Shown here in pieces: positions 36,549 to 39,520 of a stretch of DNA of 64,000 nt. The first letter of the stretch is position 1; each line of letters begins with the position of its first letter. The position numbers and the translations under genes were made by a program. The stretch is from Clavibacter michiganensis (GTDB lineage: Bacteria > Actinomycetota > Actinomycetes > Actinomycetales > Microbacteriaceae): positions 186,001 to 250,000 of the forward strand of contig NZ_MDJZ01000015.1 of assembly GCF_002151125.1 (NCBI RefSeq), read 5' to 3'. The notes below the pieces were generated by a model. The model made no database searches and was not told the origin of the DNA. It worked only from the letters and a program-made list of their open reading frames with translations.

Positions 36549-38015
36549 GTGAAGACCACGGTCGAAAAGCTGAGCCCCACGCGCGTCAAGCTCGCGATCT
36601 CTGCCACCCCCGAAGACCTGAAGCCGCACATCGACCACGCTTACGGCCACATCGCCGAGCAGGTCGCCATCCCCGGCTTCCGCAAGGGCAAGGTGCCGCC
36701 GCCCATCATCGACCAGCGCGTCGGCCGCGAGGCCGTGCTCGAGCACGCGGTCAACGACGGCATGGACGGCTTCTACCAGGCCGCCGTCAAGGAGACGGAC
36801 ATCCGCCCCCTCGGCCGCCCCGAGGCGGACGTCAAGGAGTGGCCCTCGAAGGACGGCACCGGCGACCTGCTCCTCGAGATCGAGGTCGACGTCCGTCCCG
36901 AGTTCGACCTGCCCGCCTACGAGGGCCTCGAGCTCACCGTGGACTCCGTGGAGGTCACCGACGATGAGGTCGGCACCGAGCTCGACAACCTGCGCAGCCG
37001 CTTCGGCACGCTGATCACGGTCGACCGCCCCGCGAAGACGGGCGACTTCGTCCAGATCGACCTCACCGCCACCATCGCCGGCAACGCCGTCGACACCGCG
37101 AGCGGCATCTCCTACGAGCTCGGCTCCGGCGACCTCATCGACGGCATCGACGAGGCGCTCGAGTCCCTCACCGCCGGCGAGAGCACAACCTTCGAGTCGA
37201 AGCTGCTCGGCGGCGACAACGAGGGCGAGACGGCCGAGATCGCCGTCACCGTCCAGTCCGTCAAGGAGCGCGAGCTGCCCGAGGCCGACGACGACTTCGC
37301 GCAGATCGCCAGCGAGTTCGACACCATCGACGAGCTCCGCGCGGACCTCAAGACGCAGGTCGGCAAGTCCAAGGTCTTCGGCCAGGTCACCCAGGCCCGC
37401 GACCAGATCGTCGACAAGCTCCTCGAGGGCGTCGAGATCCCCGTGCCCGAGAAGCTCGTCGAGGACGAGGTGCACCGCCACCTCGAGAACGAGAACCGCC
37501 TCGAGGACGACGTCCACCGCGCCGAGGTCAAGGAGTCCAGCGAGAAGGCCTTCCGCCAGCAGCTGCTCCTCGACGTCATCGCCGAGAAGGAGGAGCTGAA
37601 GGTCAGCCAGGACGAGCTGACCCAGTACCTCATCCAGGGCGCGCAGCAGTACAACATGGAGCCGAACGAGTTCGTCCAGGTGCTGCAGCAGAACAACCAG
37701 ATCCCGGCCATGGTCGGCGAGGTCGCGCGCAACAAGGCCCTCGCGGTCGTCCTGGACAAGGCGAAGGTCGTGGACGCCGACGGCAACACGGTCGACGTGA
37801 CCGAGTTCACGCAGCCCGTCGTGCGCGACGCGGATGCCGTGGACGCGGAGCCCGCCGACGCGGACGCCGAGGCCGTCGTGGCCGACGCTCCCGCGGAGGA
37901 GGCCGCGGAGGCGCCCGCCTCCGACGAGACCCCCGCGGAGAAGCCGAAGAAGAAGGCCGCCGCCAAGAAGGCGCCCGCGAAGAAGGCCGCCGAGAAGGCG
38001 ACCGACTCCGAGTAG
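36549..38015 (+). CDS. tig: Trigger factor
   Basis: Ribosome-associated chaperone and peptidyl-prolyl isomerase that meets nascent chains. 488 residues from a GTG preceded by AGGAG. The N-terminal ribosome-binding domain holds GFRKGKVPP (signature loop, about residues 43-51); a FKBP-type domain follows ([19 protein letters not shown]), then the long helical C-terminal arms. The last 60 residues are an Ala/Asp/Lys-rich tail ending [21 protein letters not shown]-like; this tail is long compared with other bacteria but usual in actinobacteria. First gene of a chaperone-protease cluster. Confidence 0.97.
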
Positions 38016-38048: not shown

Positions 38049-38088
38049 CACGAGGGCCCGGGGAGCACACGCTCCCCGGGCCCTCGTG
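38049..38088 (+). terminator. Terminator hairpin after tig
   Basis: CACGAGGGCCCGGGGAGC with its full complement; 18-bp stem and 4-nt loop, 34 nt past the stop. Confidence 0.8.
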
Positions 38089-38106: not shown

Positions 38107-38142
38107 CTCCGCCCGCGGCGGCCGTTCACTCCGCCCGCGGCG
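38107..38142 (+). promoter_or_regulatory. Tandem 14-nt repeat, candidate ClgR operator for clpP1P2
   Basis: CTCCGCCCGCGGCG occurs twice, at 38107-38120 and 38129-38142, 22 nt apart (about two helical turns). Each contains CGC-N5-GCG, the core described for ClgR, the activator of clp genes in actinobacteria. The site lies 31-66 nt upstream of the TAGATT -10 box, a normal place for an activator. In GC-rich DNA a single match would mean little; the exact tandem copy is the support. Confidence 0.5.
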
Positions 38143-38172
38143 AACACGGCGATCGGCGCGGATCCGCTCCGA

Positions 38173-38178
38173 TAGATT
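38173..38178 (+). promoter_or_regulatory. -10 box of clpP1
   Basis: TAGATT, 37 nt before the clpP1 ATG; no matching -35, as expected for an activator-dependent promoter. Confidence 0.5.
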
Positions 38179-38215
38179 CGTGACTCGAAGCGACGAATGA
38201 ATGGGAGCTCGAACA

Positions 38216-38803
38216 ATGGCCGAACCGACACTGGTACCCGGTGTTTTTGACCGACTGCTGAAGGACCGCATCATCTGGCTCGGATCCGAGGTCCGCGACG
38301 ACAACGCGAACGAGATCTGCGCGAAGATCCTGCTGCTGGCGGCGGAGGATTCCGAGAAGGACATCTTCCTCTACATCAACTCGCCCGGCGGTTCCATCAC
38401 CGCGGGAATGGCCATCTACGACACCATGCAGTTCGTCCCCAACGACATCGTCACGGTCGGCATCGGCATGGCCGCGTCCATGGGCCAGCTGCTCCTCACG
38501 AGCGGCACCAAGGGGAAGCGCTACATCACGCCGAACGCGCGCGTCCTGCTGCACCAGCCCCACGGCGGCTTCGGCGGCACGTCGAGCGACATCCAGACGC
38601 AGGCCCAGCTCATCCTCTCGATGAAGCAGCGCCTCGCCGAGATCACCGCGGGCCAGACCGGCAAGTCGGCCGAGCAGATCAACGAGGACGGCGACCGCGA
38701 CCGCTGGTTCACCGCCCAGGAGGCCCTCGAATACGGCTTCGTGGACCACATCCGCGAGTCGGCGACCGACGTCGTCGGCGGCGGCGGCACCGAGACCTCC
38801 TAG
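38216..38803 (+). CDS. clpP1: ATP-dependent Clp protease proteolytic subunit ClpP1
   Basis: Serine protease subunit of the ClpXP/ClpCP machine in the cytoplasm. 195 residues, catalytic triad Ser88 (GMAASMGQ), His113 (LLHQPHGG) and Asp162 (GDRDRWF). The ATG at 38216 follows GGGAG at proper distance; an in-frame ATG five codons upstream has no site. Followed 36 nt later by clpP2; actinobacteria need both for an active mixed tetradecamer. Confidence 0.97.
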
Positions 38804-38839: not shown

Positions 38840-39520
38840 ATGGAACTCCCCACCTTCGGCGGCGCCCGCGGCGCCGGCTCCACCGCCACGAGCCCGTCGT
38901 CGCGGTACATCCTCCCCAGCTTCGAGGAGCGCACGGCCTACGGGTACAAGCGCCAGGACCCGTACGCGAAGCTCTTCGAGGACCGCATCATCTTCCTCGG
39001 CGTGCAGGTCGACGACGCGTCGGCCGACGACGTCATGGCCCAGCTGCTCGTGCTCGAGTCGATGGACCCCGACCGCGACATAGTGATGTACATCAACTCG
39101 CCCGGCGGCTCCTTCACGGCCATGACGGCGATCTACGACACGATGCAGTACGTCTCCCCGCAGATCCAGACGGTGTGCCTCGGCCAGGCGGCCTCGGCCG
39201 CGGCGGTGCTGCTCGCCGGCGGCGCCCCTGGCAAGCGCCTCGCGCTCCCCAACGCGCGGGTGCTCATCCACCAGCCCGCCACGGGCGAGTCGAGCGGCGG
39301 CCAGGCCTCCGACATCGAGATCCAGGCCGCGGAGATCATGCGCATGCGCTCCTGGCTCGAGGACACGCTCGCGTCGCACACCAACCGCGACCGTGAGCAG
39401 ATCAACCGCGACATCGAGCGCGACAAGATCCTCGGCGCGAACGAGGCGCTCGAGTACGGCCTCATCGACCAGGTGCTCACCTCGCGCAAGAACCTGACGG
39501 CGGCGATCCCCGCCCGCTAG
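38840..39520 (+). CDS. clpP2: ATP-dependent Clp protease proteolytic subunit ClpP2
   Basis: Second ClpP paralogue, partner of ClpP1. 226 residues with triad Ser119 (GQAASAAAV), His144 (LIHQPATG) and Asp195 (IERDKIL). The N-terminus has an extension of about 20 residues ([20 protein letters not shown]) that is probably a propeptide removed on maturation. Ribosome site AGAGAAG is weak, in keeping with coupling to clpP1. Ends in a bidirectional hairpin. Confidence 0.97.

Follow-up and report, generated by a model that had tools for sequence, protein, structure and literature searches.

Our question was whether two identical copies of a 14-nt word in front of the protease genes clpP1 and clpP2 of Clavibacter michiganensis make up a double site for the regulator ClgR, or whether only one of them is an operator. 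The window, by which we mean the whole stretch of 64,000 nucleotides that was analysed, carries on its forward strand the gene for trigger factor (tig, 36549..38015, an open reading frame with PF05697 and PF05698 above cut-off), followed on the same strand by clpP1 (38216..38803; PF00574, and 271 bits with NF001368 at a cut-off of 249) and clpP2 (38840..39520; 321 bits with NF009205 at a cut-off of 228). For clpP1 the list of open reading frames gives a start at 38201, and we prefer the ATG at 38216. After tig an 18-nt perfect inverted repeat with a 4-nt loop (38049..38088, forward strand) can be seen by eye; it has no T run, is probably the tig terminator, and resembles a hairpin also visible in sequences of the genus. 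The 3' end of tig is itself repetitive (37890-37999 of the window), with overlapping tandem repeats that correspond to an Ala/Lys-rich protein tail. The probable -10 box of clpP1P2 is TAGATT (38173..38178, forward strand), judged from its sequence and from the spacing of TANNNT boxes in the family, and by eye no TTGACA-like -35 box stands at the usual distance from it. The repeat pair sits between the hairpin and this promoter.

The two copies of CTCCGCCCGCGGCG are both exact and lie at 38107-38120 and 38129-38142, an offset of 22 nt. An earlier sequence-only reading had described an exact 14-nt tandem repeat at this interval, 31-66 nt upstream of the -10 box and with CGC-N5-GCG in each copy, and all of this was borne out. 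The two-copy arrangement occurs a single time in the 3.02-Mb genome, where a search with the backwards pattern gave 0 matches, and first-order Markov shuffling of the upstream 150 nt, repeated 200 times, never produced a second copy that was as good. If up to 2 mismatches are allowed, the window has 22 single 14-mers and shuffles led us to expect 18.9, thus the unusual feature is the pairing and not the word. Short tandem repeats are frequent in this GC-rich window (61 rows with a score of at least 40 in TRF), and the 22-nt pair is missing from the rows that TRF reported. RNA structure across the array was rejected as a candidate, as folding of this part of the window is not better than that of its shuffles (z +1.0). 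A dispersed repeat is also unsupported: when the 18 genomes of the genus were searched for exact copies of the 16-mer unit, 20 of the 25 found were upstream of clpP1 and five were elsewhere.

The proximal copy is easier to understand when sequences from outside the genus are considered. The family set of clpP1 upstream sequences was put together from 31 of 80 named loci, 27 loci and 120 stretches, together 178, and 177 of these were anchored (L157 was left out); merging of duplicate sequences, such as L004 and L151, left 173 distinct ones. The family is taken to be Microbacteriaceae, given that the upstream sequence of L151 is identical to that of Arenivirga flava (L004), the genus for which the taxonomy was checked; one locus, L031, is titled Actinomycetales only, and the other named loci were taken as Microbacteriaceae by name. 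GCGAACA was found upstream of clpP1 in 169 of the 177 anchored sequences and the remaining 8 keep GCGAA, in the form of GCGAACT, GCGAACG, GCGAATA or GCGAAAT. A TANNNT box follows the GCG at 30 nt (127 sequences) or 31 nt (45), that is in 172/177, compared to 1.6% in shuffled downstream sequence; this is a slight undercount since the true site of L216, located by hand, has a spacing of 30. The box is at 29 and 27 nt in L214 and L278 respectively, and L292 and L293 have the site with no TANNNT box at 26-39 nt. The commonest form of the family site is YGCC-NNN-GGCGAACA, and the proximal copy is part of it. The left triplet in the 169 sites is TGC in 118, CGC in 43, AGC in 6 and another in 2, and the base preceding it is C in 106 and A or T in 46.

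Given the family-wide GCGAACA and the fixed spacing to TANNNT, the proximal copy is, to judge by its sequence, the genus version of a family-wide site. The most constant part of this site, GCGAACA, extends past the 14-mer that had been marked at first. CGC-N5-GCG was rejected as sufficient to define the site, because the family keeps GCGAACA and its left triplet is mostly TGC. The site is not restricted to this family: of 49 clpP1 loci from outside it, 29 have YGCY/AGCY-NNN-RGCGAACA ahead of the gene, with 0.025 expected from shuffles, and a Bifidobacterium breve MAG is among the positive loci. The other 20 of the 49 have no GCGAACA in a matching site, and 9 of the 49 fail a looser pattern too.

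The predicted operator, CTCCGCC-CGC-GGCGAACA at 38129..38146 on the forward strand, can be compared to ClgR sites that have been described. It has the core YGCY-N3-RGCG with an A/T-rich right arm (CGCC-CGC-GGCGAACA), but its left flank is not the WNNW that the published consensus has, as the left triplet of the window is preceded by a C. According to the passages available of two papers on Mycobacterium tuberculosis (PMC3613350, PMC2905415), the ClgR operator consensus of clpP1P2 there is WNNWMGCYNNNRGCGWWS, and changing CGC to AAA in the site cut promoter activity 3.4-fold. In these accounts the arrangement is alike, with YGCY-N3-RGCG followed by AAC upstream of the -10 box. It differs in the distance to the clpP1 start, which is 70-87 nt here and about 100 there; in the flank, where the M. 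tuberculosis consensus has A/T before the left triplet and the sites here often have C, with a left triplet that is mostly TGC in the family; and in the variable array of truncated cores that the genus of the window has just upstream of the operator. For B. breve UCC2003 the passages of PMC9004370 give a ClgR site TNCGCT-N3-GGCGNAA, based on sequence comparison and gel shifts. It is likewise upstream of clpP1 and clpC, and the B. breve MAG locus (L074) has CTGCTGTGAGCGAACA; the last base of that consensus differs from GGCGAAC, and those passages do not mention an array.

A regulator that could use this site is encoded in the genome. A ClgR homologue with a ClgR-type HTH is encoded adjacent to cinA; its best PDB match is 5woq, a ClgR, with an E-value of 1.2e-21, followed by 3f51 at 2.8e-15, and GYLSEVERG is common to the homologue and the structures in the aligned HTH. 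The top match of the regulator is the NCBIfam ClgR model NF041677, yet the score of 99 bits, obtained on 101 aa from a GTG start to the stop, is below the cut-off of 170. Finding the site upstream of clpC was one of the checks proposed along with the double-site idea, and here the expectation held: clpC carries it in 18/18 genus genomes, within the invariant stretch CGCATCGCGTCACGCCCACGGCGAACAGGGGCATGCAC (L295-L312), and the proximal copy is thus of a form common to the clpP1P2 and clpC promoters. A similar site, [CT]GCC-NNN-AGCGAACA, precedes an M17 aminopeptidase gene by 71-124 nt in 18/18 genus genomes (L325-L342; G000:C4:96824-96838 in the source genome). We predict from this sequence that the M17 aminopeptidase gene may be a further ClgR target, but given the varying distance of 71-124 nt the target could be this gene or a neighbour. 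The expected site upstream of clgR itself did not turn up, as a scan of the 5 kb around the gene gave no self-site and only a weak match without AAC. This ClgR-like match, CGCCGGCAGCGAT, is some 140 nt ahead of the start presumed for recA (L098, about G000:C12:34932). The genome-wide search with the site pattern gave 8 matches and the reversed control 1; three of the 8 are assigned, to clpP1, clpC and the aminopeptidase gene, and five are not tied to a promoter. Taken together, the family conservation, the sites at clpC and the aminopeptidase gene and the presence of a ClgR homologue make the proximal copy a well supported prediction of a ClgR operator.

The distal copy behaves differently. 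The core of the proximal copy is identical in 18/18 genus genomes and is then followed by AACACGG, while upstream of it there are 0 to 6 extra units at a step of 22 nt, or 23 nt in three genomes (G001, G006 and G011). Units were counted by hand from matches that have at most 2 mismatches, and there are seven in G016; four in G017, G001, G014, G006 and G004 (at least four in the last, which meets a contig end); three in G005, G008 and G007; two in the source genome (G000) and in G002, G003, G015 and G011; and one in G009, G010, G012 and G013. Being different in unit number at one locus between relatives among these 18 genomes, the array is a variable-number tandem repeat, and the distal CTCCGCCCGCGGCG of the window (38107..38120, forward strand) is one unit of an array that has 1 to 7 of them in the genus. 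A well supported sister pair (99/97) has 3 versus 2 units, and as only 2 of the 17 inner branches of the genus tree are starred, changes in copy number were not counted on the tree. AACA follows the unit in 0 of 32 distal copies versus 18 of 18 proximal ones, and core mismatches are seen in 9/32 distal versus 0/18 proximal units; in G002 and G007 the distal GCG itself has lost a base. The distal copy of the window holds CGC-N5-GCG, with a right arm that reads GCGGCC in place of GCGWWS. The ClgR site that had been proposed is thus well supported for the proximal copy, but a double ClgR site is not supported, as the distal copy is without the AACA arm and belongs to an array of changing length. 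Absence of the repeat from related species had been named as evidence against the proposal, and a second copy with up to 2 mismatches is absent in 4/18 genus genomes and in 164/173 other sequences. In the distal units the core does show less variation than the linker (5/15 events, p 0.017; 5/13 distinct changes, p 0.058), a marginal signal whose size depends on how the changes are counted, and copying from a constrained proximal unit would give the same.

Duplications of the core are also seen in other genera. Of the 173 sequences, 9 from 8 genera have the core a second time within 150 nt at no more than 2 mismatches, with 0.38 expected, and in 5 of the 173 this copy has at most 1 mismatch, with 0 in shuffles. 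The spacings are 22, 25, 31, 38, 39, 40, 48 and 56 nt. A second full GCGAACA site occurs in genus g45 only (two species; L219 and L227), at 31 nt from the other, and from its sequence this pair is likely a real double ClgR site. It had been suggested that the two copies of the window lie on the same face of the helix. This fits the two copies here, as 22 nt are 2.1 turns at 10.5 bp/turn, but given the 23 nt in three genus genomes and the varied spacings in other genera, helical phase is no general constraint. In some genera the distal core is followed by A-CTGTGCT (L004, L162, L262) or GG-CTGTGC (L234, L204), with looser forms in L260 and L163. A (A|GG)CTGTG after the distal core was also noticed in L004, L162, L183, L204, L234 and L262, often with an inverted GTTCGCC or TTCGCCGTGG. 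These CTGTG-flanked distal cores look like an inverted-repeat element tied to clpP1; exact matches of one such distal form in 279 genomes are at 4 places, each upstream of clpP1, and those of another form in 199 genomes are at 11 places, at least 5 of them upstream of clpP1. As a family-wide motif CTGTGC was rejected, for it is not enriched (near the site 8/172 and far from it 1/172, with a Markov mean of 6.4 and a maximum of 12).

The explanation that we consider probable is that there is one ClgR operator on the clpP1P2 promoter, with truncated, slippage-made duplicates of variable number upstream of it that are weak at best. The predicted operator at 38129-38146 would be centred at about -47.5 from the inferred start, where ClgR could help RNA polymerase at a promoter that has a -10 box and no good -35. 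Slippage or unequal recombination would have made the distal copy, as a truncated duplicate of the operator core and of the flank upstream of it, and a duplicated segment that ends inside GGCG would leave the distal units without the AACA arm. Each of them would then be a weak, half-matched ClgR site at best, with at most a weak tuning of clpP1P2; the distal copy is probably no full switch site alone, while some accessory ClgR binding by the distal cores is possible.

A different way to look at the array is as a rheostat, in which distal cores of low affinity act through local ClgR or same-face cooperativity so that the number of units sets clpP1P2 output; the in-phase truncated cores would tune clpP1P2, and the duplication would have arisen repeatedly in the family, at this promoter alone, to adjust the dose of Clp protease while the single clpC site stays fixed. 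Most distal units do keep CGC-N5-GCG at a period of 22/23 nt, 8 other genera show duplication at this place as well, including the two full sites of g45, and the core changes less than the linker. Of the three sites only the one at clpP1 has arrays; at clpC and the aminopeptidase gene the best second copy has 4-6 mismatches (18 + 18 genomes), a result that at the same time led us to reject the idea that ClgR sites in general come with an array. However, the arm missing from every distal unit, the lost GCG base in two genomes, the single unit in four of 18, spacings in other genera that are mostly not whole turns and a core signal that is marginal all make us doubt this account, and we regard it as unlikely. 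We give still less credit to the idea that the distal element is there for some other protein or structure, perhaps as an inverted-repeat element in its own right with (A|GG)CTGTGC. The CTGTGC-type words in several genera and the distal forms whose matches are all or partly upstream of clpP1 would fit it, but the word is not enriched near the site, it is CTG[CT]GCT, CCGTGC or another loose match in the genus of the window, and the fold of the array stretch is no better than that of shuffles; this makes it quite improbable. Finally, a regulator different from ClgR could use the proximal site as its operator, with a neutral array beside it. The left flank that departs from the published consensus is in its favor, but clpP1 and clpC are common targets, the core and right arm are like those of ClgR sites in the literature, and the genome encodes a ClgR homologue, which leaves it very improbable indeed.

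The predicted operator is of a known kind, and what would be new is the array next to it, with its changing number of truncated cores. The closest likeness to the array that we found is in promoter tandem repeats that alter how many regulator sites there are, such as the nadA promoter of Neisseria meningitidis, for which the passages of PMC3899988 also describe a repeat number that varies, with a unit that holds part of a regulator site. The array here differs from that account in its 22-nt unit, in a variation seen between species, and in units that are without one arm of the site. A published repeat-typing scheme for Clavibacter, as far as its available description goes, uses eight loci and none of them is a 22-bp repeat. 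In titles and abstract openings of mostly non-subscription literature we found no description of a variable ClgR-core array, and we came across no ClgR paper on Microbacteriaceae: 0 papers combine ClgR with Microbacterium, the single one for Clavibacter is listed as a fungal-metabolite study, and among the 8 listed of 112 for Leifsonia none has both names. Our findings give a comparative footing in Microbacteriaceae to clpP1P2, clpC and the predicted M17 aminopeptidase gene as ClgR targets. They also bring to light a natural promoter series from close relatives, running from 1 to 7 core units, with which the effect of extra activator half-sites becomes testable.
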